From positions 1 through 64,000 of the forward strand of contig BPIL01000010.1 in assembly GCA_026004095.1 (NCBI GenBank): a stretch of DNA of 64,000 bases, read 5' to 3'. The position numbers were made by a program, and so were the translations under genes. Within the stretch, counting starts at the first letter, position 1. Every line of letters starts with the position of its first letter. The DNA is from Meiothermus sp. Lineage in GTDB: Bacteria; Deinococcota; Deinococci; Deinococcales; Thermaceae. The notes beneath the pieces were generated by a model that saw nothing but the letters and a program-made list of their open reading frames with translations, was not told the DNA's origin and did not search any database. This document shows, piece after piece, positions 8,423 through 63,619 of the stretch.

Positions 8423-8579
8423 ACAACCTCCTTGTAGCCCCTACAGCCTAGCAGGCCCGGCCCCACCCCAAAACCCACCCTGGTTGCATTTTGTACCCAC
8501 AGGGCATCCGCCGGTTGGTGAAGACGCCAGCGCCCAAAACTCATCCGGCACTTTTACGCCGCAATAAACTGAGGCTGTT

Positions 8580-41288: not shown

Positions 41289-41292
41289 GGGT

Positions 41293-44050: not shown

Positions 44051-44087
44051 AGGGCCCACACCCCTGCGGCCCAAAGACCCGCCTGGT

Positions 44088-44618: not shown

Positions 44619-44635
44619 CTGATCTTTCCCACCTC

Positions 44636-45001: not shown

Positions 45002-45004
45002 AGC

Positions 45005-45934: not shown

Positions 45935-45950
45935 ACAGCCTCCTTACAAA

Positions 45951-47259: not shown

Positions 47260-48216
47260 CTAGCGTACCTTCTCCAGGATCAGCCGGGTCAGGTCGTTGG
47301 AGTTGCGCAAGCTCACCAGCGGGCCGCTGTAGGGGCTATAGGCCTCGGGAAGGTAAAGAATGCTCTGATCTTTCAAGCGTTTGCCCACAGGGCTTTCAAA
47401 AAACGCTTTGGAGCCGTCGTACTGTCCGCCCGGAGGGAACACCACCACCAGGGTCTCTTTATCTAAGGAGAGCAGGGCCTCATCGCTGATAGGGGCTCCG
47501 ACGTTGAGGGTGATCTTGTCCGGGGTAAAGCCATCCTTGAAACCCAGCTCGCGCAGGTCTGGCATCAGCCGTACCCCGGTGTAAATCCAGTTGGCCCCCC
47601 CGGCAAAAGGCGCGATAACCACCGCCTTGGGGTACTTCTGGAAGACACCAGCAGCCCTCAGCCGGGCGGCGTTGCGCCGGTTGTTTACCGCTACCTGCTC
47701 AATAATCGCCTCGGCCTGGGCAGTGCGGCCAAAAATCCGCCCCAGGTCGCGCAGCCCTCGCTGCCAGAACCCCTCGCCCCCCTCCTGGTAGCCAACGGTG
47801 GGCGCGATAGCCGAGAGCTTGTCGTAGTGTTGGTTGCCCTGCCAGGTCAGGCGTACGATGAGATCGGGCTTCAAAGCCAGAATGGTCTCGAGGTTCGGCT
47901 GGATCCAGCTACCCACATACACCGGGTTATTCAGGCGGGCACGGGCCAAAAACCCCTTCCTCAGAACCTCGGGTTTTACCCGCCCGGCCTCAACATCGGC
48001 CGGTGTAAGGTAGGCGCTGCCCAGGCCCACAATTCGGTCGGAAACGCCCAGCGCCATCAGCCATCCCAGGGCTTCTTCATCCAAAACCACCACGCGTTGT
48101 GGGGTTTTATTGAGGGTCGCGCTGCCTTCGTCGTGCTTGATGGTCAGAGGGAAAGCACCCTGGGCCAGCGCCACAAACAGAAAACCAAAAAGTACCACCA
48201 AGATTGCTTTCTTCAC
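47260..48216 (-). CDS. Iron-complex binding protein 4
   Basis: 318 residues from the GTG at 48216 (signal peptide [18 protein letters not shown]). [20 protein letters not shown] and [17 protein letters not shown] match the FecB fold, and [18 protein letters not shown] the lobe motif. Its closest relative here is the protein at 52318. An insertion sequence begins 3 bp upstream of the start codon, which removes the native ribosome site; the ancestral site can be reconstructed (AGAGGAG). Confidence 0.9.
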
Positions 48217-48219: not shown

Positions 48220-49296
48220 TTAGGAGTTACGCAGTTGCCTTCCTCCCCTCTACTCGGCTACCCTTTTCTGCAAAGCACACAGACTAAGAGGGATTAGCTG
48301 CTATGAACCCACCAAAGTGCAACGACCTGGACTACATCCACTTCCTCATCGCTGCCCAGAGGGTCTTTACCTGCAGCGAAGCCGCCCGCTGCCAACCAGA
48401 GGCCCCAGCCCACGATGCCTTCACCCGTCTGCTCCAGCGACAGCCTCCCGACACGGAGGCGCTGTGGCAGGAGGCCAGGGCCTTGGTGGAGCCCACCCGA
48501 GGGCTTTTGGTGCTGGATGATACCACCCTGGATAAACCCTACGCCCGGCGGATGGAGTTGGTGACCTACCACTGGAGCGGCAAGCACCAGCGGGTGGTCA
48601 AGGGGATCGCCCTCATGACCCTGCTGTGGACGGAGGGCCAGGCTCTCATCCCCTGTGACTTCCGGGTCTACGACAAGCCTTCGGGGGGCCCGAGCAAGAA
48701 CGCGCACTTTCTGGAGATGCTGCGGGTGGCCAAGGGACGGGGCTTTGCCCCGGCGTACGTGCTGATGGATAGCTGGTACGCTTCGCTGGAGAACCTGAAG
48801 GGGATTGTTGGCCTGGGCTGGCGCTTCCTCACCCGGCTGAAGGGGAACCGCCTGGTGAACCCTGAGGGGGCGGGGCTGCGGCCGGTGAGCGAGGTAGAGA
48901 TACCCCCGGCGGGACGGGTGGTGCACCTGAAGGGTTTTGGTTTGGTCAGGGTGTTCCGGACGGTTTCAAAAGACGGGGACGCGGAGTACTGGGCGACCAA
49001 CGACCTGGGGATGCGCGAGGAGCAACGGGGGGAGCTGGAGCGGGCGGGATGGGGTATAGAGGTCTACCACCGGGGCCTCAAGGGGTGTTGCGGGGTGGAG
49101 CGGGCCCAGGTGAGGAAGAAGGTTTCGGTCTTAGGCCACCTGCTGCTGGCCCTGCGGGCTTTCCTCAGGCTGGAGGCACACCGCTTGCGGACGGGGGTGA
49201 GCTGGTACGAGTCCAAGACAAGCATCATTCGCGAGGCGATACGAAGTTACCTGGCCAATCCCATCCACATCCTTCACCCAACTGCGTAACTCCTAA
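48220..49296 (+). mobile_element. IS701/IS4-like insertion sequence
   Basis: 1077 bp with perfect 18-bp inverted repeats: TTAGGAGTTACGCAGTTG (48220-48237) and its complement (49279-49296). It holds one transposase gene on the plus strand, opposite to the surrounding genes. No CTCGAG inside. Confidence 0.9.
48303..49289 (+). CDS. Transposase, IS701-like DDE type
   Basis: 328 residues. The first catalytic Asp is in LLVLDDTTLDKPYARRMEL, a typical IS701 motif; the second is probably in VLMDSWYAS, and the Glu in WGIEVYHRGLKGCCGVER (YHRGLK region of DDE_Tnp_IS701). The reading frame is intact and reaches into the right inverted repeat. It is likely active or recently so. Confidence 0.88.
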   Translation: MNPPKCNDLDYIHFLIAAQRVFTCSEAARCQPEAPAHDAFTRLLQRQPPDTEALWQEARALVEPTRGLLVLDDTTLDKPYARRMELVTYHWSGKHQRVVKGIALMTLLWTEGQALIPCDFRVYDKPSGGPSKNAHFLEMLRVAKGRGFAPAYVLMDSWYASLENLKGIVGLGWRFLTRLKGNRLVNPEGAGLRPVSEVEIPPAGRVVHLKGFGLVRVFRTVSKDGDAEYWATNDLGMREEQRGELERAGWGIEVYHRGLKGCCGVERAQVRKKVSVLGHLLLALRAFLRLEAHRLRTGVSWYESKTSIIREAIRSYLANPIHILHPTA

Positions 49297-49327
49297 CTGT
49301 TATATGAAATCCTTTTGATTCATTCCC

Positions 49328-49888
49328 CTAACATCCCCCCGGCCACCAGTGAAATAGGGTGTAGCTCTGGATAAGCGCGGGCTGGGTTTGTAGGTAAGCG
49401 CACCGGGCTTCCACCTTGGCCCACAGCTCCTCTTCATCCTGCACCTGCCCATTGGCCACGACCGCGTCAATGAGCCCCCAGGTTCGTTCTACCGGCTGCA
49501 ACTCGGGCGAGTAGGGTGGCAGATAACACAGCCCCAGGCCCTTGGCTGGCTCCACCCGCCCCGAGGTGTGCCAGCCAGCCTGATCCAGCACCACCAGTAC
49601 CAGCTTGCCCGCCCCCGCCCCCCGTAGCCGGGCAAAGGCCTCCAACACCAACTGGAACCCCTCCACCGAGACCGAGGGCAGCAGCCAGTACTCGCTTTCC
49701 CCCGTACCCGGTCTTATGAAGGCGTACACATACAGCCAGCGATAGCGGGGCCGCTCCTGCGCTAGCGGCGTCCTCCCTCGCAAGGCCCATACCCGTCGGC
49801 GGATGGGCTTCAGCCCTATTCGGTGCTCATCAAAGCCCCACACCTCCAACTCCAGTTCAGGAAAGAGCAACCTGAACAGGAAAACCAT
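49328..49888 (-). CDS. IS630 transposase, catalytic half
   Basis: 186 residues with DDE domain: the first Asp in WGFDEHRIGLKP, the second in LVVLDQAGWHTS, and the Glu in LPPYSPELQPVERTWGLI. It starts at an ATG that overlaps the stop of the first frame (TGATG). A run of seven A at about 49898-49904 just before the end of frame one suggests a slippage site to make the fused transposase, or coupled re-initiation. Confidence 0.88.
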   Translation of the reverse strand: MVFLFRLLFPELELEVWGFDEHRIGLKPIRRRVWALRGRTPLAQERPRYRWLYVYAFIRPGTGESEYWLLPSVSVEGFQLVLEAFARLRGAGAGKLVLVVLDQAGWHTSGRVEPAKGLGLCYLPPYSPELQPVERTWGLIDAVVANGQVQDEEELWAKVEARCAYLQTQPALIQSYTLFHWWPGGC

Positions 49889-50400
49889 CAGAAAGAGCTT
49901 TTTTTGAAAGCCTCCTGCCGCTTCGCATCCGCCTCCCGGTGGCGCGGCCGGGGGCGCAGCGGGGCCAGGCCCAGGCGACGCATCCAGTACCAGGCCCGCC
50001 GCCCATCCACCGGACGTCCCAGCCTTTCAGCCAGCCACTCCGCAGCGTTGCGAATGCTCCAAAGCCCGTCCCTGGGATGGGGCTGGAGGAGGGCCTGGCG
50101 GAAGCCCTCCTGGAGTTCGGGCGGTACGAGGGGGGCCCGGCCTTTGTTCTCGTGCCGCAGATTCTTCATGGGCAGGCCCTGATTGTAGCGGTGGATTACC
50201 TGACGCACCCAGCGATCGGTATAGCCCAGATTCCTGGCTACCTCGGGGATGCTCTGACCCCTGGCCAGCAGCCAGAGAGCGTGCCAGCGGGCGCGTTCGG
50301 TGTGGTCTTGGGACTCCCGGTAGAGGGCGTGGAGGTTATCCGGATGGTGTCGCAGTTGGAGTTCCAACCGGGGGCGGCGCTGATGTTGGGCCAGTTGCAT
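49888..50400 (-). CDS. IS630 transposase, helix-turn-helix half
   Basis: 170 residues with a winged/HTH region (IPEVARNLGYTDRWVRQVIHRY) and the second DNA-binding part (WSIRNAAEWLAERLGRPVDG...WYWMRRLGL). It ends after KKSSF, where a seven-A run lies just before; the catalytic part is in the next frame. The pair forms the usual split IS630 gene. Confidence 0.88.
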   Translation of the reverse strand: MQLAQHQRRPRLELQLRHHPDNLHALYRESQDHTERARWHALWLLARGQSIPEVARNLGYTDRWVRQVIHRYNQGLPMKNLRHENKGRAPLVPPELQEGFRQALLQPHPRDGLWSIRNAAEWLAERLGRPVDGRRAWYWMRRLGLAPLRPRPRHREADAKRQEAFKKSSF

Positions 50401-50494
50401 GGCTCCATTTTAGTGGAAAGAGTCTTGAAGATTTCTTATTAGCTCCTCTTCGCGAGCGCATTTGTGCTGCGCTCGAGCGGCATTCGCAAAGGGA

Positions 50495-50538
50495 AGTCTA
50501 TTGGGTGTTGCTTTATAAAGTCAAGTATTCCACTCGGA
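50495..50538 (-). promoter_or_regulatory. Iron-locus promoter, copy 1
   Basis: On the minus strand: TCCGAGTGGA (50529-50538), 4 nt, TTGACT (50519-50524), 18 nt, TAGACT (50495-50500). It once stood about 80 bp before the binding-protein gene now ending at 47260; two insertion sequences have moved it more than 2 kb away. Confidence 0.8.
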
Positions 50539-50599
50539 TTTATCGGCCTTACTCCAGATCAGGCACCGTATTAGCTCAGCCTGCAGCCCCCCCAAGGCC

Positions 50600-51575
50600 C
50601 TAAGCCGATGTCGTATCCAGCCTGCGCTGATAGGCTTCGGGATCCCAGGGAACGCGTGTCCGCTTTACGGTTGGATCGGGGATGGGCACCGCCGAGAGCA
50701 GGGCTTTGGTGTAATCGTCCTGCGGGTTCCGGTAGATGGTGTGTGCATCGGCCAGCTCTACCAGACGCCCCCTGTACATAACCGCCACCCGATCCGAGAT
50801 GCTCTCCACCACAGCCAGGTCGTGTGAGATGAAAAGCAGGGTTAGCCCCAGGGTTTTCTTTAGTTCCCTGATGAGCTCGAGAATTTCAGCACGAATGGAG
50901 ACATCCAGCGCAGACACACACTCATCGGCCACAATAAAGTCGGGGTTGAGCGCCAGGGCTCGAGCAATGCCGATGCGCTGGCGTTGCCCACCGGAAAACT
51001 CGTGCGGGTAGCGGCGGGCCATATCGGGGTCAAGCTGTACCATCTCCAGCAGTTCGGCCACCCGCTGGTTGCGCGCTGCGGCTGTCTTATGGGTGTTGTG
51101 AATTAGCAAAGGCTCAGCCAGGATATCCCCCACGGTCATGCGTGGGTTGAGGCTGGCGAAGGGATCCTGGAAGATTATCTGTAGCCGCCGGCGCAACGGC
51201 CGAAGCTCGTGTTTAGGCAGATGGGTGATATCCTGCCCGTCAAATACGATGCGGCCGCCCGTGGGCTCAATCAGCCGCAGGATGCACCGGCCTACCGTGG
51301 TTTTGCCCGAGCCACTTTCGCCCACCAGCCCCAGCACCTCTCCCTTGTGTATTTTCAGACTCACGTCGGACACCGCCTTTACATAGCCCTGAACACGGTT
51401 TAGAAGACCGCCCCGCAGCGGAAACCATTTCTGCAGGTGCTCAATTTCCAGGAGCACCGGCGGCTCCTCTTGTTTGGGTGGGGCCGGTTTAGCCATGTCG
51501 ATGCGCGGCACAGAGGCGATAAGCCGCTGGGTGTAAGCTTCCTTGGGGGCCGCGAAAATTTCTTTAACCCCCCCC
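50600..51575 (-). CDS. DppF/OppF-like half of a double ABC ATPase (downstream of frameshift)
   Basis: About 325 residues. It begins at the frameshift with [21 protein letters not shown], which is the natural C terminus of a DppD domain, then a second complete ATPase domain (Walker [10 protein letters not shown], signature [10 protein letters not shown], Walker [13 protein letters not shown]). The tail [16 protein letters not shown] is normal for the peptide/nickel family. If it is not reached by slippage at the G9 tract, translation could restart at the ATG at 51496, but no ribosome site is visible. Together with the upstream gene it forms a GsiA-like DppD-DppF fusion. Confidence 0.82.
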
Positions 51576-52307
51576 CTCTTCCACCTTAACCCCGTGCTGC
51601 ATAACCACCACTCGATCGGCCATCTCGGCCACCACCCCGAGGTCGTGGGTGATGAAAAGCACACTGGTCTGGATCTCCGACTTAAGCTTGTTGATCAGCT
51701 CCAGAATCTGGGCTTGAATAATCACGTCCAGCGCGGTGGTGGGCTCATCGGCGATGAGCAGGCTGGGCTTGCAGGAAAGCGCCATGGCGATCATTACCCG
51801 CTGCCGCATGCCCCCAGACATCTGGTGGGGGTAATCTGCAAATCGCCGGTGTGGATTGGGAATTTCCACCAGGTTAAGCATCTCTATAGCCAGGGCCCTG
51901 GCCTCCTGACGGCTTTTCCCTTGATGGAGCCGGATGGCCTCCACAATCTGGTCACCCACGGTGTAGACCGGATTTAACGAGGTCATCGGTTCCTGAAAAA
52001 TCATGGCGATGTCGTTGCCGCGAATCCGGCGCATCTGCGCTTCCGTCAGGCCGATTAGCTCCTTCGGTTGCCCATCCTTGCCCCGAAACCAGACCTGGCC
52101 GGATACAATCCGCCCCGGCGGGCTGGGTATGAGCCGCATAATGGCTAAACTGGTTACACTTTTACCCGACCCCGACTCCCCAACCACCGCCAGCGTCTCG
52201 CCCTTATTGATGTGAAAGGACAGGTCGCGCACGGCCTGGATCACCCCGTTGTCGGTGGTGAACTCAACTGTTAGCTGATTGACTTCCAGTATTCGATCCT
52301 GTTTCAT
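51564..52307 (-). CDS. DppD/OppD-like half of a double ABC ATPase (upstream of frameshift)
   Basis: 247 residues. Walker [10 protein letters not shown] (about residue 43), signature MSGGMRQRV, Walker [14 protein letters not shown] and the peptide-family loop [17 protein letters not shown]. It stops early at VEEGGG because of a run of nine G (minus strand); removing one G restores the frame into the next ATPase. No permease or peptide-binding gene (OppA/B/C) is adjacent, so the partner is unknown. The start follows GGAG. The location between two iron-binding-protein genes suggests iron-linked transport. Confidence 0.85.
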
Positions 52308-52317
52308 GCTGCTCCTT

Positions 52318-53253
52318 TCAGCGTCCCAACAGCAAACGGGCTATTTTTTCCGCCCTGCGCAGGTCGGTGATGGGGCCCCCTTGGGGTTCTTGAAGATCCA
52401 GCTCGTAGCGGTACAAAGGCACCTGTGTGGTTTTGAGCACGCGCTCACTGGTTAGTTCCGGATACCGGCCATCGGGGGTTTTGGCCCGTATATACAGCAC
52501 AAAGTCGGTATTGCTTCGGTTTATAGTGGCAAGGGCTTCTGGTGAGACCGGCTGGTAGGAGCCATCTTTAATCTCCACGCCCGGTACGCTAGCCAGACGA
52601 AAACCCAAACGGGCCAGCGCGATGGAGTAGTTGAACTTTGGCCCAAACACCCCGGTAAACTGCTCGTTGTACAGGAAAAGCGAGGTAACGCGGGGGTTCT
52701 TAGCCACGAAAGGAGCCAGCCGCCCACGCCAAACCCGCATCTGGGCATCGTAATCGCGCAGCACTTTCTGAGCTTGCTGGGTTTGATTGAGGGCTCTTGC
52801 AGTCTCTAAAAAAGCCGTGCGCCACCCTGTAACTGGATCGCGGTTAAACTCCCAAGCCAGCACCGGGGCTATTTTCTTCAAGCCCTCAATGGCCTCCGAG
52901 GTTCCCCAGACCAGTATCAGGTCGGGCTTGAGTGAGAGCACGGCCTCGAGCGAGGGTTGCATGGAGTTGCCCACATAGATGGCCGGGCCTAGCTGGCTGG
53001 GCGAGTAGTAAGTAAGGCCGCTAACCACTTCGCCTGGCCGGACGGCCTGTATTCGGCTAGAACCATAGCCAACCGGCTTTACTCCCAGCGGTATCAAGAG
53101 TTCTAGTAATTCCTCCCCCAAGGCCACCACACGCTCGGGCTTTTTCACAATTGTGGTTTCGCCCGCATCGTGTCGAATGGTCAGCGGGTAGGCGGTCTGG
53201 GCACCGGCTAGCAAGCTCCAGCAAAAAGCTACGATCATCAGGTTCCGTATCAT
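52318..53253 (-). CDS. Iron-complex binding protein 5
   Basis: 311 residues. Signal peptide ending AGAQTA, then [20 protein letters not shown] and [17 protein letters not shown]; lobe segment [19 protein letters not shown]. Closest relative in the window is the gene at 47260. Start overlaps the stop of the VOC gene by 4 bp (ATGA). Confidence 0.92.
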
Positions 53254-53993
53254 CGTTCTCCTTTCTCATCCCCAAGGACGGGCTCGAGGATGGGATCACC
53301 CAGAAGGTGAATCGCCACGCCCTGGGTCTGGCCCCGATCCAGCCTGCCCTCGAGCGGATGACGGGTGCGCAGGATGAGTGTTTGCAAGCCCTCTTCCGTT
53401 GAGGTCTGTAAGTACAGCAGGTGAGATCCAATGGTAAAGACGGCGCGCCGCCCCTGGGCCGTACTCTCAAAAAACCCTTGCTGCCCCAAAAGCCGGCGAA
53501 AGCGAAGCGTTTGACCCAGCAGGTTGGGGGTATGTAAACAAAGTGCGTGCAATCCGACCACCCCATTGGGGTGCTGGGACGGAAGATGGATGGGCTGTGG
53601 CATCAACGGGTTGAACAGCAGGGGCAGTGGAAACCAGGGCAGGGCCAGATGCGGGCACCATCCCCCCAGGGTCTCATAGCTCAGATCCTGGGCCCGGAGG
53701 TGGGCCTCGAGTTCGGCGAAAGAAGCTTTGGGGGTAAGACAAAAGTCCAGCAAGCGGCGCTGCCTGTATTGCCTCAGGCGGCTTTGCAGAATCTCCCCTC
53801 CCCTAGCCAGAAAGCGTTCCAGCCCGCCCTGGTGTGGTAAGAACTCCAGCAATACGCCATCGGGCAGGTATATCCAGGCCCCGCCCCAATGGGGGCTGCG
53901 CACCACTGCAAACCCCAGATCGCGGAAGTTTTGTACGGCCGCCTCGAGGTTCTCGAAGCGAAGCAAGATATGGGAAACGCGAAATTCAAGCAT
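53250..53993 (-). CDS. VOC/glyoxalase-fold protein
   Basis: 247 residues. VSHILLRFENLEAAVQNFRDLGF is the classic VOC opening, and the length allows two modules with a second one near VVGLHALCLHTPNLLG. The fold binds metals or small molecules and includes dioxygenases, glyoxalase I and antibiotic-binding proteins. Cytoplasmic. It is translationally coupled to an iron-complex binding protein, so a role with the imported ligand is possible. No clear metal triad can be assigned. Confidence 0.8.
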   Translation of the reverse strand: MLEFRVSHILLRFENLEAAVQNFRDLGFAVVRSPHWGGAWIYLPDGVLLEFLPHQGGLERFLARGGEILQSRLRQYRQRRLLDFCLTPKASFAELEAHLRAQDLSYETLGGWCPHLALPWFPLPLLFNPLMPQPIHLPSQHPNGVVGLHALCLHTPNLLGQTLRFRRLLGQQGFFESTAQGRRAVFTIGSHLLYLQTSTEEGLQTLILRTRHPLEGRLDRGQTQGVAIHLLGDPILEPVLGDEKGER

Positions 53994-54247
53994 TCACATC
54001 CCCCTCACCTGCCACACCCAGAAAGTAGAGGGCCCAGGGCTCCACCCGGCTCGAGGGTTCGGTCTGAGCCAAAAACTAACTTCACCACCCGGATTAGTCG
54101 GATTTTGGGCTCGAGGCACACCCCCCTCACCTGCATAGCTTTGCCAAAAGCCTGCCGCCCGGGGTTTTAGCAACCGCTGGCCGCCCTGCGCCACCATCTG
54201 CGAAGTTCCCGGGGGTTGCAGGGCCTGGCCTAACACCACCAACACCC

Positions 54248-54850
54248 CTACCCCCTCCAGGCCACCTTCTCTTCCCACGGCCTGCGGCGGGCTTTTGGCC
54301 AGGGAATTGCCGGGCGCCCAACGTACAGGAAACCCAGCAGTTTATCGGGCGGCTCCAGACCCACAAAGCGGGCGGTGTTTTCGTGTCGCACTGGCAGCCC
54401 AGAGGTCCAGAAAGCCCCCAAACCCAGGCTGGCCGCCACCAGATGGGCATTCTGTACGGCGCAGGCCACAGCCGCAATCTCTTCCCACTCAGGAATCTTG
54501 GGATGGGTGCCTATCCGCACACCGATCGAGATCCAGACCGGCGCTTTCCAGACCCGTTCCTTCTGGGCAATCCAGGCCGATTCCTGAAAGGCCTCACCCG
54601 TAAACGCCAGGCGGTAGCTCTGGGCAAAGGCTTCACCCAAGGCGCGCCTCGCTTCGCCGCTAAAAACCGTAAAACGCCAGGGCTCGGTTAAGCCATGGGT
54701 TGGGGCGTAGTTTGCAGCCTCGAGCATCCACCGGATGTACTCCATCGGGATGGGCTCGGGAGAAAGCTGTTCCTGAGAGATACTGCGGCGCCTACGGATA
54801 ACATCCATCAGCATTTCCAACTCCGCGGGTAGGGCCGTATCTTCTATCAT
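54248..54850 (-). CDS. Nitroreductase-family flavoprotein
   Basis: 200 residues. Motifs RRRRSISQEQLSPEPIP and APTHGLTEPWRFTVFSGEARRALGEAF are typical of YdjA-like nitroreductases, which bind FMN and use NAD(P)H. The relation to the cobalamin enzyme BluB is weaker. In an iron cluster such a reductase could release iron from a ferric chelate. Start ATG at 54850 has a good GGAGGT site. First gene behind the iron promoter at 55002-55045. Confidence 0.85.
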   Translation of the reverse strand: MIEDTALPAELEMLMDVIRRRRSISQEQLSPEPIPMEYIRWMLEAANYAPTHGLTEPWRFTVFSGEARRALGEAFAQSYRLAFTGEAFQESAWIAQKERVWKAPVWISIGVRIGTHPKIPEWEEIAAVACAVQNAHLVAASLGLGAFWTSGLPVRHENTARFVGLEPPDKLLGFLYVGRPAIPWPKARRRPWEEKVAWRG

Positions 54851-55001
54851 TAGAACACCTCCGTGGCCTGCATTCTGCGAGAACAGGCGGTAAAGATGGG
54901 GCTCTTTTCAAGCAGGCCGTTGGGGTTGGGAGGGCTTTTCACCGCAGGAGCAAGCTGTTTACCAAGTCCTGCAAGGGGTATTCAGCCTTCACAACGACCC
55001 C

Positions 55002-55045
55002 AGTCTAAAACCGCCAATTCGCAAAAGTCAACTATTCCAGTCGGA
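55002..55045 (-). promoter_or_regulatory. Iron-locus promoter, copy 2
   Basis: On the minus strand: TCCGACTGGA (55036-55045), 4 nt, TTGACT (55026-55031), 18 nt, TAGACT (55002-55007). It is about 145 bp upstream of the nitroreductase gene. The 338 bp between the nitroreductase and MoxR-type genes hold this promoter, a Fur-like box and the leaderless promoter of the MoxR gene. Confidence 0.82.
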
Positions 55046-55057
55046 TTTTATTAATAT

Positions 55058-55076
55058 AAAAATGATAATCAATCTC
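55058..55076 (-). promoter_or_regulatory. Fur-box-like sequence
   Basis: AAAAATGATAATCAATCTC matches the classic 19-bp Fur box GATAATGATAATCATTATC at about 14-15 of 19 positions. It lies just upstream of the TCC-N4-GGA element of copy 2. It could also be an AT-rich UP element. Confidence 0.5.
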
Positions 55077-55176
55077 AGTAGATAACAGCCCGCATGCCCA
55101 TGCCTGGTGTGCTTCTGGCCGAAAGCGATGTTACTCAATACCAATCTGATTTACACAGTCTGGGAACAGGCGGGAC

Positions 55177-55182
55177 TAAACT
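55177..55182 (+). promoter_or_regulatory. Leaderless-type -10 box of the MoxR-like gene
   Basis: TAAACT is followed by 6 nt and then the ATG at 55189; the transcript would begin at or next to the start codon. No clear -35 is visible at the usual distance. Confidence 0.5.
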
Positions 55183-55188
55183 TGACCC

Positions 55189-56610
55189 ATGATCAAGGCC
55201 CGAACCCTCGGTGAACTCAAGCGCACCTACCCCCTGGAAAAACTCCGCCGCAGCGTAAAGGACGAGGCGCGGGAAAACCTGATTGCCAAATTGCGTTCCG
55301 GCGAGCGTCTTTTTCCCGGTATCCAGAGCTACGACGACTCGGTGATTCCCAACCTGGTCAATGCCATCCTGGCCCGGCACAACTTCATTCTGCTGGGCTT
55401 GCGCGGACAGGCCAAAAGCCGCATTTTACGCCAGCTTACCGAACTCCTGGACGATGAAGTACCGGCGCTGCCCACCGAGATCCGCGACAACCCCCTCTTC
55501 CCCCTCTCGGCCGAGGCCAAGCGCCTGCTGGAGGAGGCCGGTGACGACGCCCCCATCGTCTGGATTCCCCGCTCGGAGCGCTACGTAGAGAAGCTAGCCA
55601 CCCCCGACACCACCGTGGCCGATATTCTGGGCGACATTGACCCCATCAAGGCCGCCAAGCGCGGCACCGGGCTGGCCGACCTCGAGGCCGTCCACTACGG
55701 CCTCTTGCCCCGCGCCAACCGGGGTATTTTTGGCATCAACGAGGTGGCCGACCTGGCCCCCAAGGTGCAGGTGGCGCTTTTCAACATCCTGCAGGAGGGC
55801 GATGTGCAGATCCGGGGCTATCCGGTGCGCCTCCAGCTCGACGTCTGGATTGCCTTCACCGCCAACCCCCAGGACTACACCGCCCGCGGCAAGATCGTCA
55901 CGCCCCTCAAAGACCGCATCGGCTCGGAGATCCGCACCCACTACCCCCGCACCCTCGAGGAGGGCCTTTCCATCACCCGGCAGGAGGCCTGGGTCGCTCG
56001 AGCGGAAGGGATGTACATCCCCGCCTACGTGGCCGAGGCTTCGGAAGCGGTGGCCTTTGTGGCCCGCGAGGACAAGCGGGTGGACAAAACCTCGGGGGTC
56101 TCGCAGCGCCTCTCCATTAGCCTGCTGGAGCTGGTAGCTTCCAACGCCGAGCGGCGGGCCCTGCTGGCGGGGGAGCGCCCGGTGGCCCGGCCCCTCGACC
56201 TTTACGCGGCGCTGCCGGCCATTACCGGCAAGATCGAACTCGAGTACGAGGGCGAACTCCAGGGAGCCGAGCGGGTCGCCAAAGATCTTTTACAGAAGGC
56301 TTTCGGCCTGGCTTATGGCGAGCGGGCCCGGGGCCTGCAGGTAGACGAGATCGTGCAGTACTTCGCCGATGGCAACCTCCTGACCCTGCCCGAGGGCAGC
56401 GCCAAAGCGGTGCTTAAGGAGATGGAAAAGGTACCGGGGCTGATCGCGGCTGCCCAGAAGCTCGAGCCCCAGACCACCCCCGAGGCCCTGGTGGCCGCCG
56501 GGGAGTTCATCCTCGAGGGCCTGGCCGGCCGCCGCAAGATCGCCCGCGGCGAGGAGAGCTACAGCGCCCCCATCGAGCGGGAACGCGAACGCTGGGGGAG
56601 CGGCAACTGA
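55189..56610 (+). CDS. MoxR-type AAA+ ATPase resembling magnesium chelatase subunit I
   Basis: 473 residues. Walker [10 protein letters not shown] around residue 70; a long segment with [22 protein letters not shown] and [28 protein letters not shown] (Walker B and sensor region) and [21 protein letters not shown]. This is the Mg-chelatase-like clade of AAA+ proteins. It is followed 14 bp later by a VWA gene, so the two form a MoxR/VWA chaperone pair, perhaps inserting a metal or cofactor into an enzyme. It is distinct from the iron genes in direction but shares their intergenic region. Confidence 0.88.
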
Positions 56611-56624
56611 TCGGGAGTAAACCC

Positions 56625-57845
56625 ATGCGCGTCCGATACTCCAAATACGAACCAGGCTTCGACGACCTCACCGGCGCCGACCTGATGGATATGATCCAGG
56701 ACTTCCTGATGGACTCGGGCTTTTCGGATCCCTACAACCGCTACCAGCCCGACCCCAACCGCGGCCCCACCGTCGAAGACCTGATGGATGCCCTGCTGCA
56801 AGCCCTGCTGGAACGGGATCGCATCCCCGAGGAGTGGCTGCGCGAGGCCCGGAACGCCCGGAATTTTCAGGAAACCCGCTTAGGCCAGGAATTACAGCGC
56901 CTGATCCAACGCCTGCAAGACGAGGGCTACATCCGGCTGCCCGGCGACGACCCCACCAGCCCCCAGGGCCAGGGTATGCAGGGCGCGGCCCAGGAAACCC
57001 GGTTGGAACTCACCAATAAGTCGGTGGACTTTCTGGGCCTCAAGAGCCTGCGCACCCTGCTGGGCTCCCTGGGCAAAAACGCCCCCGGCGCCCACCTCAC
57101 CCGGCACTTTGCCTCGGGGGTGGAGTCGAGCGGCGAGACCAAGCCCTACGAGTTCGGCGACCAGCCCAACATCAACATCGGCGAGACGCTCAAGCAGGTG
57201 GTGATGAAGGGGCTGGAGAACATCGAAGAACGCGACCTGACCATCGAGCTGTCCGAGTACACCGCCGCCATGAACACCGTGGTGCTGCTGGACTGCTCCC
57301 ACTCCATGATCCTCTACGGCGAAGACCGTTTCACCCCGGCCAAGCGGGTGGCTTTGGGGCTGGCGCACCTGATCCGCACCCAGTACCCCGGCGACCAGGT
57401 GCGCTTCGGGGTCTTCCACGACAGTGCCGAGGAAGTACCGCTGGGCCGTCTCCCCACCGTGCAGGTTGGGCCTTACCACACCAACACCGCCGAGGGCCTC
57501 AAGCTGGCCCGCAAGATACTCAGAAAAATGAGCGGGGAGATGAAGCAGATCATCATGATTACCGATGGTAAGCCCTCCGCGCTCACCCTACCCTCGGGTC
57601 AGATCTACAAAAATGCCTGGGGCCTCGACCCTGTGATTCTAGCCGAGACCCTCAAAGAGGCCACCCTGGCCCGCAAGGAAGGCATCCCTATTCACACCTT
57701 CATGCTGGCCCGTGAGCCCGAGCTGCTGGCCTTCGTCAAGAAAATCACCCAGATCACCAAGGGCAAGGCCTACCTCACCACCCCCGGCAACATCGGGCGG
57801 TATGTGCTGATGGACTTTTTGAACCGCAAGGTAAGCCGGAACTAG
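56625..57845 (+). CDS. VWA-domain protein, partner of the MoxR-type ATPase
   Basis: 406 residues. The C-terminal VWA domain has a complete MIDAS: DCSHS (D-x-S-x-S), a Thr in HTNTAEGL, and an Asp in [10 protein letters not shown]. The N-terminal 200 residues are acidic and helical, as in BchD/CobT-like or YehP-like proteins. It would act with the ATPase as a metal-dependent chaperone. No chlorophyll or cobalamin genes are nearby, so the client is unknown. Confidence 0.88.
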
Positions 57846-57941
57846 ACGAGGCCTGTAGAGCACCTTTTGTCGAGCTTGTACTCCGAGAAGCGGTTATACG
57901 CATCTCGACAGCATTGTTCACTTTTGAAGGCGGAAACGGCA

Positions 57942-58217
57942 CTAGTAATGGTATCGCGCTTGCAGGAAATCAATCCGCTCGTCTGAAACGCGGTAAACCA
58001 GGCGGTGCTCCTGGGTGATCCGGCGCGACCACATGCCAGGGCCAAGGTATTTGAGGGGTTCGGGCTTTCCGATCCCAGCAAAGGGTTCGCGCAAAACCGA
58101 TTCGATCAGGTCGAAAATTTTGAGCGCAACCTTTCGGTCAGTATCCACCCAGAAGCGAAGATCCTCGAGAAAAACCGGCGTGAAAAGGGCCTCGCGCGGC
58201 TTATTGGCCTTGGCCAC
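57942..58217 (-). CDS. yoeB: Toxin of the YoeB/Txe family
   Basis: 91 residues. FLEDLRFWVDTDRKVALKIFDLIESV and EPLKYLGPGMWSRRITQEHRLVYRV, ending RYHY, are the full set of YoeB features including the C-terminal His and Tyr used in ribosome-dependent mRNA cleavage. Start is GTG at 58217, overlapping the antitoxin gene by 17 bp. Confidence 0.92.
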   Translation of the reverse strand: MAKANKPREALFTPVFLEDLRFWVDTDRKVALKIFDLIESVLREPFAGIGKPEPLKYLGPGMWSRRITQEHRLVYRVSDERIDFLQARYHY

Positions 58218-58488
58218 CCAGTACCTCGAGCCGCAGATCTGCGGTGCCGCCCTTCAGACCCTCACCTTTTTGAGCCTGCTCGAGCGCCTTCAACAGCCGC
58301 TCGGCGTTCTTGGGAGAGCGCAGCAAGTGCACGGTTTCCATAAGTCGCTCGTACTCATCGGCGTCAATCATGGCCACGCGCTTCCCGTTGCGACGGTTGA
58401 TGATGACCACCTCCAGATCGTTGGTCACGCGATCGAGCAGGGTAGCTAGCTGCTCTCTAGCCTGGCTGTAACTTGTTTCAATAGCCAT
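58201..58488 (-). CDS. yefM: Antitoxin of the YefM/Phd family
   Basis: 95 residues from the ATG at 58488. MAIETSYSQAREQLATLLDR and the DNA-binding core NRRNGKRVAMIDADEYERL are typical; a Leu-rich tail contacts the toxin. It neutralises YoeB and represses its own promoter. A longer upstream frame exists but it would run through the operator. Confidence 0.92.
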   Translation of the reverse strand: MAIETSYSQAREQLATLLDRVTNDLEVVIINRRNGKRVAMIDADEYERLMETVHLLRSPKNAERLLKALEQAQKGEGLKGGTADLRLEVLGGQGQ

Positions 58489-58496
58489 AACCCTAT

Positions 58497-58515
58497 TGTA
58501 CAGTAAATATGTACA
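58497..58515 (-). promoter_or_regulatory. YefM-type operator with two TGTACA sites
   Basis: TGTACA at 58497-58502 and at 58510-58515, 13 bp apart centre to centre, just upstream of the antitoxin start. TGTACA cores are the known recognition element of YefM in the E. coli yefM-yoeB system. Confidence 0.8.
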
Positions 58516-58583
58516 GGTTCGAAGGCGATGGTCACTGGCCGGCACTCATGCTTTGCCCTTCGCTTCCGGCTACACTACCCTTT

Positions 58584-58829
58584 ATGAAAATGGCCCGAGC
58601 CTGGGGAATCGCGGCCTACCTGGCCCTCCTCATCGAACGCCTCTCCCAGGCTGTGCAGTTCCGGCCCAGGCCGGCCCTGAACCCCGCGCAGATCCGCCGC
58701 TACGAAGGGGTGCAGTGGGAGTTGAGCCTCGAGGTGCCCTATTACCCCGCGCGAAGCCCCGGGGGCTATGTGCTGATTCCCAAGGATGGCTACTTCCAGC
58801 AAGCTGAGGAGGTTCTGGAGCATCTTTAG
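58584..58829 (+). CDS. Small hypothetical protein
   Basis: 81 residues from the ATG at 58584, preceded by TACACT and 7 nt. RYEGVQWELSLEVPYYPARSPGGYVLIP is the only conspicuous part. No known domain and no membrane segment beyond a short hydrophobic helix near the start. It may be a real leaderless gene; support is only moderate. Confidence 0.45.
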   Translation: MKMARAWGIAAYLALLIERLSQAVQFRPRPALNPAQIRRYEGVQWELSLEVPYYPARSPGGYVLIPKDGYFQQAEEVLEHL

Positions 58830-58904
58830 GGCGCGCTCGCACTGGCGGCGTCATGGTGCACTGCATCCTACCTGAACTCAACCCTTCCCCAGTACCCTGT
58901 AGCC

Positions 58905-60215
58905 ATGCACCGAGCATGGGCTGCAAGGCGGGCTTGGCGGGTGCGGCTCTGGCTGGCTACAGGGCTGGCCTTGCTGCTATTCCCGCTGGCCTGGCTGGTG
59001 CATCCGGCCTGGGTATTGGGGTCGTTGCTGGGTTTGCTGTACCCCTCCCGCTGGGAGGAGCGGCGCGCCCTGGCCGACCTGGATCGGCAGTACGGCCTGG
59101 CCTACCGCAGCGCGCTGGAGGCCCCGCCCCACCACCCCTGGCGTAATCAGTTGCAGCTCGAGGCGGCGGCCAGTCTGCGCGGAGCCCGGCTGCCGACCAT
59201 ACCCTGGGTTTTTGTGGCCCTCTACCTGGTGCTGGTGGGGCTGGCGTGGGTAATGCCCCCGCTGCGCCCGCCCTCCTCGCCTGCGGTGGCCTCGAGCCCC
59301 CCCTCCCCTCCCGCACCACAAACCACCCGCCCAACCGACCCAGCCCAACCCAGCCCACAGCCAACGGAACCCCCCCCTCCACAAGGGAACTCCTCCGAAG
59401 GCCAGCAGCCCGGTGTGGAGCCTGGGGAAGCCATCAACCCAGCAGAAGAGTCGCAGCCTACGCGAACAGACTCGCCCGCACAGGAGGGGGGTGCTCAAGG
59501 CCAGAACCAGCCGCAGGACGCAGTCGGCCAGGATGCAACGCGCCCCGGTCAAACGGGTGAAAACCTGCAAGGCCGCGAAGAGCCTTCGTCCAGCCCAAAC
59601 GGGCAAGATCCCGCACAGTCTGGGCAGAATTCACCCAATCCGACAGGACAGCCGCAGACCAATCAGCCGGGTCAAGCACAGCCTCCTCAACCTGGACAAG
59701 CACAGCCTCCTCAACCTGGACAAGCGCAGCCATCCCAACCTGGACAAGCGCAGCCCTCTCAACCTGGACAAGCACAGCCAACACAGCCCGGACAGACACA
59801 GCCCTCGCAAGCGGGCCGTCCGCAATCGGAGCCAAACCAGCCCAGCCAGCCGGGGCAACCGTCCCAGAGCCAACCTGGACAAGCACAGCCCTCCCAACCT
59901 GGGCAAGCACAGCCAGGGCAGGGCCAGCCTTCGAGGGATAATCCGGGCCAGGGTCAGGCTCGAGGTGGTGAAGGCGGTAGCCCGCAGGCCCGCCCACCCC
60001 AGAACCTGCCCTTGCGCACCGAGCGCCCAGCAGGCGAAGCGCCGCTCAGCCGGGGGGAAAACCGACAGGGAAGACCCGCCCCCCTGCCCAGCCCCTGGGC
60101 CTCGGGCCAGCCCCCGCAGAACGTGCAGCGCCAGGCCGAGAAGTACCTCGAGTCCGAGCCTTTGCCCCCCGAGGTGCGCAACCTCGTTCGTCGCTACTTT
60201 GAACTACCCCCCTAG
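58905..60215 (+). CDS. Membrane protein with a Pro/Gln/Gly-rich repeat region
   Basis: 436 residues. Two transmembrane segments near residues 17-45 and 100-118, then a low-complexity region that begins with Pro/Ser/Gln-rich sequence and contains QPGQAQPP/S repeats at residues 254-301. A folded C terminus (EKYLESEPLPPEVRNLVRRYFELP) resembles that of large BatA/DUF4175-type membrane proteins. TACCCT lies 6 nt before the ATG. It may be an envelope spacer. Function unknown. Confidence 0.7.
   Translation: MHRAWAARRAWRVRLWLATGLALLLFPLAWLVHPAWVLGSLLGLLYPSRWEERRALADLDRQYGLAYRSALEAPPHHPWRNQLQLEAAASLRGARLPTIPWVFVALYLVLVGLAWVMPPLRPPSSPAVASSPPSPPAPQTTRPTDPAQPSPQPTEPPPPQGNSSEGQQPGVEPGEAINPAEESQPTRTDSPAQEGGAQGQNQPQDAVGQDATRPGQTGENLQGREEPSSSPNGQDPAQSGQNSPNPTGQPQTNQPGQAQPPQPGQAQPPQPGQAQPSQPGQAQPSQPGQAQPTQPGQTQPSQAGRPQSEPNQPSQPGQPSQSQPGQAQPSQPGQAQPGQGQPSRDNPGQGQARGGEGGSPQARPPQNLPLRTERPAGEAPLSRGENRQGRPAPLPSPWASGQPPQNVQRQAEKYLESEPLPPEVRNLVRRYFELPP
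59664..59918 (+). repeat. 24-bp coding tandem repeat
   Basis: Six consecutive 24-bp units from 59664 to 59807 encode QPGQAQPP or close variants; after 63 bp two more follow (59871-59918). Units differ at a few positions, mostly silent or P/S/T changes. This is a coding repeat, not a CRISPR array. Confidence 0.85.
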
Positions 60216-60292
60216 AGGCATCCAACCAGCCCACCATGCCCACACAGCGATTGTGCTAATGCTATTGGTTATCAGTTTCAAAAATCATATAT

Positions 60293-60335
60293 TCCAACCG
60301 GATTACTTGACTTTACAGCAGCAGCTTCCTAGACT
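60293..60335 (+). promoter_or_regulatory. Iron-locus promoter, copy 3
   Basis: TCCAACCGGA (60293-60302), 4 nt, TTGACT (60307-60312), 17 nt, TAGACT (60330-60335), on the plus strand, 24 bp before the imelysin-like start codon. TTATCA lies about as far upstream of the -35 as in copy 2. Confidence 0.82.
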
Positions 60336-60359: not shown

Positions 60360-61388
60360 ATGAAATGGCCCACCCTCGCGCTGCTATCGCTATCGTTATG
60401 GTTGCCCACGGCCCAGGCCCAGGTTGAAAGTGTAAAAAGCTACCTGATTGAGCGCGTGTCGCAGCAAAAAGCCGCCACGGCTCAACTGGCCGAGGCCGCT
60501 GGGCGCTACGAGGCCATCGTTCGCAACGCTGGGTTTCAGTACACCAAACTAGCCCAGCAGCATGGCCCGGCCATTCGCAACGCTCTGCGGGACGCCCGGA
60601 TGGCCTGGATTAAAGCCAGCCCGATTTACGAAAGTGTGGAGGGCATTGTGGCCGGCGTCGAGTTGTTGAGCGATTTCGATCTCAATCTGGATGCCGGTGC
60701 TTCAGGGGCCGAGGGGGGCGATGCCGTGGTCACCTTTGACCTTAAGCTAGCCAACGGCAAGGTTCTACCCCGCCCCGGCAACCTTTTTGGTGTTTTAGAA
60801 GGCAGCCTGTGGGGTAGCGAACGCGCTTTCTCCTCCGGGGTGGCCTTTGACGTGGACGGCGACGGCCGTATAGGGTTTGGCGATCATCTGCCGGACGCGC
60901 TCATACTGCGGGCTGCTGCGGAAAAACTGGATGCCATGACCGGGGAGTTGCTGGCTACCGCCCGCACATGGAAGCCCACCGCGCAGGATGTGTTCAGGGC
61001 CTTGGCCGCCAACGTGCCCACGGCAGCACCGGTGTTTATCGAGCGCTGGAAAACCAGTCGGTTTGTGCTGGGCGACAAGGCCACCCGCCGGGACTTTAAC
61101 GTGATCTCTTCGCTGGACGACCTGATCAACAACATCACCTCCTGGCAGCAGCTTTATGGAGGGGTAGCGCAGCTCGTGCAAGCCAAAAACCCCTCCCTCG
61201 ACCGGCAGATTCGCGATGGCCTGGCCAGCCTCAAAACCTGGGTGCAGCGCCTGGCTGCGCAGGAGAAAACCCGTCGCTTCACACCCGAGCAGGCCGAGAT
61301 GATCCTCAAAGAGGGCGATAACCGCGCCACGGCTGTGACCGGAAAAATCGTTCAGGCTGCCGTCTTGCTGGGCATCAAGGTGGAGTAA
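60360..61388 (+). CDS. Imelysin/EfeO-like periplasmic protein
   Basis: 342 residues with a signal peptide (ending PTAQAQ). The helical body and location before an FTR1 permease suggest an EfeO/imelysin relative that captures iron in the periplasm, though the GxHxxE metal site of imelysins is not evident. FDVDGDGRIGFGDHLPD around residue 160 is EF-hand-like and may bind Ca2+. A GGAAGGA ribosome site precedes the ATG. Its stop overlaps the next start (TAATG). Confidence 0.65.
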   Translation: MKWPTLALLSLSLWLPTAQAQVESVKSYLIERVSQQKAATAQLAEAAGRYEAIVRNAGFQYTKLAQQHGPAIRNALRDARMAWIKASPIYESVEGIVAGVELLSDFDLNLDAGASGAEGGDAVVTFDLKLANGKVLPRPGNLFGVLEGSLWGSERAFSSGVAFDVDGDGRIGFGDHLPDALILRAAAEKLDAMTGELLATARTWKPTAQDVFRALAANVPTAAPVFIERWKTSRFVLGDKATRRDFNVISSLDDLINNITSWQQLYGGVAQLVQAKNPSLDRQIRDGLASLKTWVQRLAAQEKTRRFTPEQAEMILKEGDNRATAVTGKIVQAAVLLGIKVE

Positions 61389-63619
61389 TGCGCTGGATAA
61401 CAACCATGCTGGTGGTGCTTGGGTGCTGGGCCCTGGCCCAGCACAGCCCTGCAGAGGCCGCCGAGCACCTGCGGGCTGCCTTGAGTCAGGCTGCCCTCGA
61501 GCTCAACTTCGACCCCGGCGCGGCCAGGAATCTTCTAAAGGAAGCAGAGCAGGCTGCGCTACTGCTAGAAAAGCAGGGCCTTGGCTTTGAACAGGGCGCT
61601 TTTGCCCGGCTCGAAGAGCAGATTGCCCAGAAAAACCCGGCCGGTTTTGCTCAGTTACAGGCCCGGCTCTGGACAGATCTACTGGCCCAGAGCTACCGGC
61701 GGCTCGAGGAGGCCTTGCGCAAGGGGAACCTCGAGGAAGCCAGGAATTGGGCCAGCCTGCGGGAGTACCGCCCAGCCACCCCCTACGCCCCGCCTGCCTA
61801 CGATGCCACCCTAGCGCTGGAAGAGCTGGCACAAAACAAGCTAAATGTGCAGGAAGCCCTGACCGCTGTGCAGTCGGATCTGCTCGGCGCATACCAGGCA
61901 CGCCTGGCGCAGGCCCTCGAGGCCGCACAGCAGGCCCAGCAGCAGGGCCACCGGGTGCGCCTGGCCGAGCAGATCGCCCTGGCCCAGGGCTACTTTGCAA
62001 TTCTCGCCGATGCCTACCGCCAACAGCGCGGGGAAGCTGCCCTGGCCCAGGCCCAGCAGGCGTTTGCCAGCGGGCAGCCAGCCGCCATGCTAAAGGTGCT
62101 CGAGGGTTTTCAAGCAGCCCCCCTGTCGCCGCGCGAACGGGCCAAGCGGGCCAACCAAACCCTGCGCTTTTTACAACTGGTGGCTGTGGAATACCGCCGG
62201 GGGGTGCGGGGCGCCGAGGGCGAGGTGCGCGTTACCAACGAGCTCGAGATCATCGAGGCACGCAGCTTTTTGCGCAGCGCCCAGAGCGCCTGGAAGGTGC
62301 TCGAGCCACTTCTGATCAAAGATCAGGGGGCCCAGGTGGGCCTGGTTAACCAGCGCTTCGCCTGGCTCGAGCAGGCCCTGTACACCCACACCCCCCCCAC
62401 AGCCGACAGGCTCTCGGACGAGGTAGACGCGACCGTGCGCCTGCTATCGGATATGTTGCCCGAGTCCTGGCGGCGGGCCGATCCATCCGGCGACCTCGAG
62501 GTCATACGTCAGCAGTTGCGATCGCTGGAAAACGCCGTTGCAGCGGGTCGCTACGATCTGGCCGAAACGGCCCGCCTGGATGCCTACGCCATGCTGGAGT
62601 CGGGGGCCGAGGCCCGCCTGCGCGCCTTCAACCCCCAGCTTGCGCTGGATCTGGAATCGCTGTTTTGGAATGGGGTGAACCCCCCAGGCCTGGCCCGCCT
62701 GATCCGGGATAAAGCCAGCCCCCTCGAGGTGCGCAACACCCGTCGTACGCTGGAGAACAAGCTTAATGAGGCCGCCCGCATACTGGGCCGCGAAACCTCC
62801 CCAACCACCATCGGCATCAACGCCGCCATCATCGTATTCCGGGAGGGCCTGGAAGCAGTGCTGATCATTGCGGCGCTGCTGGCCTCTTTTCGTCGCCCAG
62901 AAAACCTGCATCTGCGCCGACCGGTCTGGTGGGGGGTTGGTCTGGCCCTGATAGCCAGCCTGCTTACCTGGGCCGCCATGTGGGGAACCATCCAGCAGTT
63001 TGCGCGGTTCGGCGAGCGGGTAGAGGCCGTGGTCTCCTTGCTGGCTATCGGTGTGCTGCTGCTAATCCTGAACTGGTTTTACCATAAGGTGTACTGGACC
63101 GACCGCCTGGCCGACTTTCACCAGCATAAGCAACAGGCGGTGCAAAAAACGGGCTGGGCCGCCATACTCGGGCTGGTTGCGGTGGGCTTTGAAAGCATCT
63201 ACCGCGAGGGCTTTGAAACAGTTTTGTTTTTGCAGTCGCTGGTGCTGCAGGGGGGGTTCCGCGATGTGCTCTGGGGCATCCTGGTAGGCCTGAGCACCGT
63301 GATTCTACTGGGAATCGCCATCTTTCGTTTTCAGATTAAGCTACCCCAAAAAAAGATGCTGATCTTCACCGGGGTGCTGATCCTGATGGTGCTGGTGGTA
63401 ATGGTGGGCCAGACTGCGCACGTCATGCAGGTGGTGGGTTGGCTGCCCATACACGCCTTTCCCCTCGAGATACCCTTCTGGCTAAGTAGCTGGTTCGGCC
63501 TGTACGCGACCTGGGAAGGCATCGTTTTGCAGGTGCTATCCGCGGGCGTGGTGCTTGGAAGCTATTTCTGGGCAGAGCGAATCAAGCGCAATCACCTGGG
63601 CCGCCTGAAAACCGCCTGA
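61388..63619 (+). CDS. FTR1-family iron permease with a large N-terminal domain
   Basis: 743 residues. A signal peptide (ALAQ) and about 470 residues of mostly helical, presumably periplasmic sequence precede a C-terminal membrane part of about seven segments. Both FTR1 iron-binding motifs are present: FREGLEAVLIIAAL near residue 485 and YREGFETVLFLQSL near residue 604. It imports Fe2+/Fe3+ like EfeU, with the upstream protein as capture partner. Ordinary EfeU is about 280 residues, so the N-terminal domain may replace EfeO/EfeB. Confidence 0.92.
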   Translation: MRWITTMLVVLGCWALAQHSPAEAAEHLRAALSQAALELNFDPGAARNLLKEAEQAALLLEKQGLGFEQGAFARLEEQIAQKNPAGFAQLQARLWTDLLAQSYRRLEEALRKGNLEEARNWASLREYRPATPYAPPAYDATLALEELAQNKLNVQEALTAVQSDLLGAYQARLAQALEAAQQAQQQGHRVRLAEQIALAQGYFAILADAYRQQRGEAALAQAQQAFASGQPAAMLKVLEGFQAAPLSPRERAKRANQTLRFLQLVAVEYRRGVRGAEGEVRVTNELEIIEARSFLRSAQSAWKVLEPLLIKDQGAQVGLVNQRFAWLEQALYTHTPPTADRLSDEVDATVRLLSDMLPESWRRADPSGDLEVIRQQLRSLENAVAAGRYDLAETARLDAYAMLESGAEARLRAFNPQLALDLESLFWNGVNPPGLARLIRDKASPLEVRNTRRTLENKLNEAARILGRETSPTTIGINAAIIVFREGLEAVLIIAALLASFRRPENLHLRRPVWWGVGLALIASLLTWAAMWGTIQQFARFGERVEAVVSLLAIGVLLLILNWFYHKVYWTDRLADFHQHKQQAVQKTGWAAILGLVAVGFESIYREGFETVLFLQSLVLQGGFRDVLWGILVGLSTVILLGIAIFRFQIKLPQKKMLIFTGVLILMVLVVMVGQTAHVMQVVGWLPIHAFPLEIPFWLSSWFGLYATWEGIVLQVLSAGVVLGSYFWAERIKRNHLGRLKTA

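Follow-up and report, generated by a model that had tools for sequence, protein, structure and literature searches.

The DNA analysed here (the window) is the 64,000-nucleotide stretch at positions 1 to 64,000 of contig BPIL01000010.1 of Meiothermus sp. (assembly GCA_026004095.1). It holds a FecB/FecCD/ATPase cluster, a unit with a nitroreductase and a further FecB-type binding protein, and a unit with imelysin and the iron permease FTR1, together with three promoters of one type. A first-pass annotation had described these promoters as sharing the -35, the -10 and an inverted repeat (dyad), TCC-N4-GGA, 4 nt from the -35. All three were recovered as described, and TCC-N4-GGA-N4-TTGACT has exactly three exact matches in the window. 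The layouts are TCCGAGTGGA-ATAC-TTGACT-18-TAGACT for site 1 and TCCGACTGGA-ATAG-TTGACT-18-TAGACT for site 2, both on the minus strand, and TCCAACCGGA-TTAC-TTGACT-17-TAGACT for site 3 on the plus strand. The parts of these sites, with the Fur-type palindromes described below and a fourth site on the same contig, are as follows.

50495..50500, minus strand: -10 TAGACT of site 1, 18 nt from the -35; kept in L014 and L018
50517..50540, minus strand: core of site 1, AATCCGAGTGGAATACTTGACTTT; dyad at 50529-50538, -35 TTGACT at 50519-50524; 24 of 24 positions agree with the core consensus
55002..55007, minus strand: -10 TAGACT of site 2, 18 nt from the -35
55024..55047, minus strand: core of site 2, AATCCGACTGGAATAGTTGACTTT; dyad at 55036-55045, -35 at 55026-55031
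55060..55074, minus strand: Fur-type palindrome of site 2, GATTGATTATCATTT; centre 22 bp upstream of TCC, score 14/15
60263..60277, plus strand: Fur-type palindrome of site 3, TATTGGTTATCAGTT; centre 23 bp upstream of TCC, score 12/15
60291..60314, plus strand: core of site 3, ATTCCAACCGGATTACTTGACTTT; dyad at 60293-60302, -35 at 60307-60312
60330..60335, plus strand: -10 TAGACT of site 3, 17 nt from the -35
C10:68913-68932, minus strand: site 4, outside the window, an exact match of the genome-wide pattern search

Frequency of the element in the genome

The genome of the window comprises 2,767,118 bases, and its assembly is 84% complete. The genome-wide pattern search, which the first-pass annotation had proposed as a check, gave four exact matches, where a first-order Markov model built on the window predicts 0.22 for the genome (0.005 per 64 kb), and the reversed-pattern control gave none. 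With 2 mismatches allowed, the window contained 9 matches against a shuffle mean of 4.15, and 2 of 100 shuffles reached 9; the outstanding signal is thus the exact matches rather than the 2-mismatch ones. Searching with a fuller consensus and tolerating as many as 3 mismatches yielded the same four sites and added none.

All four copies lie between 50,519 and 68,932 of the window's contig. Such a cluster inside 18.4 kb could point to chance or to the recent spread of one duplicated promoter, but the low number of expected matches speaks against the former and the sequences around the core against the latter. Identity among the four promoters is 0.79-0.96 in the core, 0.07-0.47 in 15 nt of the spacer between -35 and -10, and 0.13-0.33 in the flanks. 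Since spacers and flanks are near random while the cores are alike, the four promoters are not recent duplicates and the core has been kept by selection. Non-homologous genes across the family also carry the same element, and this explanation, already refuted in substance, has a negligible probability.

Consensus and distribution

The exact pattern was found at 45 places in 25 of 61 genomes, with one match for the reversed control. Forty-two of these places align as one element; the other three (G037:C11, G023:C1:595027 and G020:C15) are unrelated, were not reported by the sequence model and were discarded. A sequence-only profile was built from 41 sites and used at a match threshold of E ≤ 0.01; in searches of many genomes, stricter filters were applied and at most 90 (Thermaceae) or 40 (phylum) candidates per genome were scored. 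The profile matched 50 of 50 Thermaceae genomes (family f1, taken as Thermaceae), 28 of which had given the model no sequence. In the phylum, 62 of 111 genomes were positive, namely the 50 of f1 and 12 of 14 in f4, a second family of the same order that we take to be Marinithermaceae. The f4 matches have E values from 1e-12 to 0.003, and some are weak or cover model positions 6-47 only (G075, G078, G079). None of the 47 phylum genomes outside the two families gave a match among the candidates scored (at most 40 per genome) under the stricter filters, which is no proof of absence there. In genome_contigs (84,980 species), TCCRANYGGAWTASTTGACTTT was found in 26 stretches, of which 25 are on contigs of Thermus, Meiothermus, Calidithermus or Thermaceae; about 2 chance matches were expected by our own arithmetic with equal base frequencies. 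The 26th, on the Helicobacter-labelled contig L103, was judged to be a chance match in AT-rich (31.5% GC) coding DNA that looks flhA-like by eye, and its partial model match (23.6 bits, E 2.9e-6) was attributed to L103 having been selected by the pattern.

The full element reads AWTCCGANYGGAWTASTTGACWTT, then 17-18 nt, then TAnnnT, and its conserved block of 24 bp extends beyond the dyad plus the -35. The consensus is A-W-T-C-C-G-A-N-Y-G-G-A-W-T-A-S-T-T-G-A-C-W-T-T across the 110 of 113 unique rows in which a core can be recognised, a set in which the FbpA site of L041 is counted twice and many rows come from close relatives. The core matches at 22 or more of 24 positions in 102 of the 110 sites, more than a -35 requires. 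TAnnnT follows the -35 in 105 of them, at 17 nt in 84 and at 18 nt in 21. In three f4 FeoAB promoters (L183, L184 and L185, from G043, G047 and G060, respectively), TCCGACCGG stands 11 nt and not 14 nt from TTGAC, and a Fur-like stretch is still found upstream. Because the dyad is 3 bp closer to TTGAC there, dyad and -35 look separable. Two other f4 loci, L181 and L182, carry a divergent copy of the element before a reading frame of about 45 codons.

Association with iron-uptake genes

Frequent occurrence of the motif at unrelated promoters, which the first-pass annotation had named as a finding that would refute its reading, was not seen. When the 15-bp dyad block AWTCCGANYGGAWTA was searched without any -35, 82 matches (one site being counted on both strands) were found in 49 of 50 Thermaceae genomes, all at model sites, against one match for the reversed control. 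Genes of iron-uptake type, with functions assigned by homology, lie within 1.5 kb downstream in 108 of 113 distinct site contexts. These comprise FbpA/Sip (56 contexts), heme monooxygenase/heme uptake or FecB-type genes (24), FeoB (13), FTR1/imelysin (10), the nitroreductase cluster (3) and an FbpB-type permease (2); the FecB-cluster sites of G011 and G016 were counted in the heme class, as their FecB proteins match the HmuT reference. The five other contexts are site 1 of the window, with its inserted DNA, the f4 sites L179, L181 and L182, and the weak site L180. At L041, two divergent copies were seen at 8534-8609 (minus strand) and 9121-9201 (plus strand), one directed toward FbpA and one toward an FbpB-type permease; a copy preceding the permease is also present at L168. 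The anatomy of the sequence, its spacing, its exclusive use at these promoters and its spread are established.

These data also bear on the view that the core is simply a very strong promoter module for RNA polymerase that has no dedicated binding protein, and that Fur gives all of the regulation. The regular TTGACW and TAnnnT spacing would suit such a module, and so would the strength of a published 100-bp fragment of the sip promoter (PMC7282064). However, other strong promoters should then share the module, and the dyad block is confined to these sites; moreover, the dyad is GC-rich, whereas an UP element would be AT-rich. We consider this view quite improbable.

Fur-type palindrome upstream of the dyad

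A second conserved part, the palindrome RAAYGRTTAYCRTTY with the best form TTGCRAAYGRTTAYCRTTYGCAA, lies upstream of the dyad. Its letters fit the centre of the Fur consensus, with a central GATWATC and 7-1-7 symmetry. In 100 of 110 sites the best match has its centre 21-23 bp upstream of TCC. A score of at least 11/15 is reached in 100 of 110 sites and also by 8% of shuffled stretches, where the scoring consensus was derived from the same sites and the shuffles were made from the first 60 rows only. The first-pass annotation had held that the element is not the classic Fur box. This is correct for the dyad itself, since AWTCCGANYGGAWT has no GATWATC core, and it fails for the promoters, most of which, including sites 2 and 3, have the Fur-type palindrome alongside. 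Fur-type symmetry near the promoter was thus seen at window sites 2 and 3 and not at site 1; the palindrome does not overlap the -35 or the -10, its centre being about 36 bp upstream of the first -35 base. The strict palindrome was found at 18 places in 14 of the 50 genomes, 15 of them at model sites, and the reversed control gave 6. Two of the other three, palindromes without a dyad at L205 (1501-1518) and L200 (G070:C76:6766), stand beside frames that look peroxiredoxin-like and ZIP-like by eye, and may be PerR or Zur sites or, given the 6 control matches, chance.

At site 1 the best Fur-type score is 10/15 and out of register (26 bp), and the orthologous sites of G016 and G011 score 9 and 7, respectively. 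In these three species the core is kept at 24 of 24 positions without an in-register Fur-type box, which indicates that the core of site 1 is under selection of its own.

The system shares with known Fur regulons the palindrome, the iron-uptake genes and FUR-family proteins, which have at least one match in 50 of 50 Thermaceae genomes and exactly three in 47 of them. In the window's genome the family includes a Fur-like protein and one over the cut-off of the PerR model, and G016 has a further FUR-family gene beside a ZnuA-like gene (by eye). It differs from them in that the palindrome is paired with a second, unrelated dyad and is centred at about -72, not over the -35 and -10. It could be argued that Fur does everything: its dimers would load on the palindrome and, by spreading or cooperative binding, also cover the dyad and the -35, and the dyad would be a divergent Fur site. 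The constant presence of FUR-family proteins and the fixed 21-23 bp between palindrome and dyad agree with this, as does the published interaction of Fur with the sip region (PMC7282064), and spreading would solve the geometry of a lone box at about -72, a poor place for repression. Against it stand the different letters of the dyad, the conservation of the site 1 dyad in three species without an in-register box, and the fact that the dyad is more conserved than the Fur-type box. We regard action by Fur only as unlikely.

Comparison with the sip promoter of Thermus thermophilus

Among the loci examined, the FbpA protein nearest to the solved 3wae chain, presumably from T. thermophilus HB8, is that of G068 (94.2% identity), followed by that of G032 (87.9%), and none is identical. 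In both G068 and G032 the distance to the start codon is 85 nt from the start of the core and 107 nt from the Fur-type centre.

Thermus serves as a model thermophile, and the promoter of its sip gene, which is linked to iron, is already in use in an expression vector. According to PMC7282064, supersaturated silica raises expression of the FbpA-type protein Sip of T. thermophilus about tenfold, an effect that the authors ascribe to iron starvation through presumed sequestration of iron by silica, and the Fur protein TTHA0344 was found to interact with DNA no more than 150 bp from the sip coding sequence. No match to the Fur consensus known from other bacteria was seen at sip, and the Fur site "remains unclear" (PMC7282064). 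A 100-bp upstream fragment was active, 6 times stronger than the 600-bp one and leakier, and a 50-bp fragment was dead; titration of Fur by plasmid copies was the authors' suggestion for the strong 100-bp fragment (PMC7282064). If T. thermophilus is like G068 and G032, the 100-bp construct kept the core and the promoter and lost the Fur-type box, which would fit a repressing role of the box. The same gene carries the element in the closest species examined, whereas PMC7282064, in the part consulted, reports no Fur consensus and names no dyad. The putative dyad operator was also not met in the literature found on iron and Fur regulation in Thermus, Meiothermus and Deinococcus-Thermus, in which the motif letters were not searched for, and the two primary Sip papers, Doi 2009 and Fujino 2016, may describe part of it. 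Our analysis offers a candidate Fur site, a candidate second operator and a predicted regulon of FbpA, FeoAB, heme uptake and FTR1 throughout the family.

Proposed mechanism

The first-pass annotation had read the motif as an iron-starvation regulon element other than the classic Fur box. The element does mark iron-uptake promoters; it is, however, a new, composite kind of promoter associated with Fur and not a non-Fur element, and its newness lies in the putative second operator and the presumed reader of that operator. The best reading is a dual-input iron-starvation promoter served by Fur plus a further dyad-binding factor, and judging from the sequence comparisons we consider it somewhat more likely than not. 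The promoter itself would be of sigma-A type (TTGACW, 17-18 nt, TAnnnT), with a putative dedicated operator, the 14-bp dyad AWTCC-GANY-GGAWT, separated from the -35 hexamer by 2 bp on its upstream side. The candidate Fur site usually lies 22 bp further upstream; its centre would be near -72, given a transcription start about 7 nt past the -10. Iron-loaded Fur probably occupies the palindrome and reduces transcription. The dyad, at about -51 to -38 and beside the -35, would be read by a second sequence-specific protein; we lean toward an activator or co-regulator that contacts RNA polymerase, and a second repressor is almost as likely.

We infer from the sequence which box Fur reads and that a second protein exists, as well as its sign and signal. 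The dyad appears to be a protein site of its own and not a part of the -35, because it is conserved separately at site 1 and shifted by 3 bp in three f4 FeoAB promoters. In our estimate there is about an even chance that an undescribed iron-starvation regulator, present throughout the Thermaceae and in much of the second family, uses AWTCCGANYGGAWT as its operator and acts together with Fur, and at site 1 without a Fur box. Should the dyad be read by a new regulator, this lineage would control iron differently from Fur-only and DtxR-only schemes.

Several observations weigh against the dual-input promoter. No regulator gene recurs beside the sites (protein clusters of at least 4, inspected by eye on crude gene calls); the sole regulator gene adjoining them, of CRP/FNR type, precedes feoAB in 10 of the 12 Thermus feoAB loci examined. 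The dyad is an imperfect palindrome, with position 4 near-invariant and its mirror position 5 variable. The evidence for the Fur-type box is affected by a consensus built from the scored sites themselves, with 8% of shuffles reaching 11/15; the box of site 4, though in register, scores 10/15, as do 31% of shuffled stretches, and site 1 is missing an in-register box. The sip distances were taken from G068 and G032 and not from the T. thermophilus promoter. Finally, dipyridyl and phenanthroline caused no notable induction of a sip reporter (PMC7282064), a misfit with a simple iron-only signal.

Candidate dyad-binding proteins

The 3' end of the CRP/FNR-type gene lies immediately ahead of the feoAB Fur-type box at L280 (31-585), L148, L154, L155, L162, L163, L165, L166, L171 and L279. 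One of the two feoAB loci without it ends at a contig boundary, and no such gene was seen within 530 bp upstream of feoAB in L138. The protein has NCBIfam matches only below cut-off, and its recognition helix carries an E-x-x-S-R pattern that we take to be FNR-like. A possible parallel is offered by iron-starvation activators such as IdiB of cyanobacteria, a member of the CRP family: the dyad reader, too, would activate a FutA/FbpA-type gene from a position next to the -35. The difference is that no such protein was identified here.

Another candidate is an Rrf2/IscR-type iron-sulfur regulator that would read the right part of the core. Rrf2 matches (E ≤ 0.001) were found in 50 of 50 Thermaceae genomes, 49 of them over the family cut-off. 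The type 1 site of IscR has the consensus ATASYYGACT with an inverted second half, and the letters ATASTTGACW of the core fit its half-site. The element differs from it in that no conserved inverted second half-site follows the -35. ATASTTGACW was also not found in the stretches around Rrf2 genes beside a cysteine desulfurase-like gene (L281, L284, L287), and such a regulator seems very unlikely.

Besides Fur, the first-pass annotation had named DtxR and MntR as candidates. The DtxR-family domain occurs in 104 of 111 phylum genomes and its distribution thus does not follow the element. An AraC-family protein (HTH_18) was ruled out as the family-wide binder, being present in 11 of 50 Thermaceae and absent from the window's genome as assembled (84% complete). 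An extracytoplasmic function sigma promoter with GGAAT as its -35 was discarded as well, there being no conserved -10 at the required distance. The Fur-family, Rrf2 and CRP/FNR-type candidates are none of them tied to the dyad.

Genes behind the sites

40287..47257, minus strand: rest of the FecB/FecCD/ATPase/flavodoxin cluster; five genes assigned by Pfam, others named from their reading frames
47260..48216, minus strand: FecB-type periplasmic binding protein; best match an Fe3+ dicitrate substrate-binding protein, under cut-off
48222..50438, no strand: insert of about 2.2 kb carrying transposase genes, located between fecB and the promoter of site 1; boundaries approximate
50600..54850, minus strand: nitroreductase, VOC-like protein, FecB-type substrate-binding protein and DppD- and DppF-type ATPases behind site 2
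60360..63619, plus strand: imelysin (Peptidase_M75) and FTR1 iron permease behind site 3

The first-pass annotation had assigned each of the three promoters to an iron locus. The FecB gene is directly behind the site 1 promoter in the relatives G011 and G016, which have no insert. In the window's genome about 2.2 kb of inserted DNA now separates the promoter from fecB, so that service of the FecBCDE cluster by site 1 may have ceased. The insert contains a transposase gene with DDE domains (48303-49289, plus strand) and two overlapping minus-strand frames (49888-50400, with HTH domains, and 49328-49888) that look IS630-like by eye. In the FecB cluster, the Pfam matches for FecCD, flavodoxin and Peripla_BP_2 were over cut-off, AHSA1 was just over, and DUF6686 and Polyketide_cyc2 were just under. 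In the site 2 unit, the VOC-like protein had no Pfam match and DppD was named from its reading frame.

Site 4 lies 167 bp before a small monooxygenase gene (Pfam ABM; its best NCBIfam matches, heme-degrading enzymes, are under cut-off), which is followed in the operon by genes for a periplasmic binding protein, DUF3386, a FecCD permease and an ATPase. Immediately upstream of site 3, at 58905-60215 of the window, is a reading frame with a long Pro/Gln-rich repeat (QPGQAQPSQ-like).

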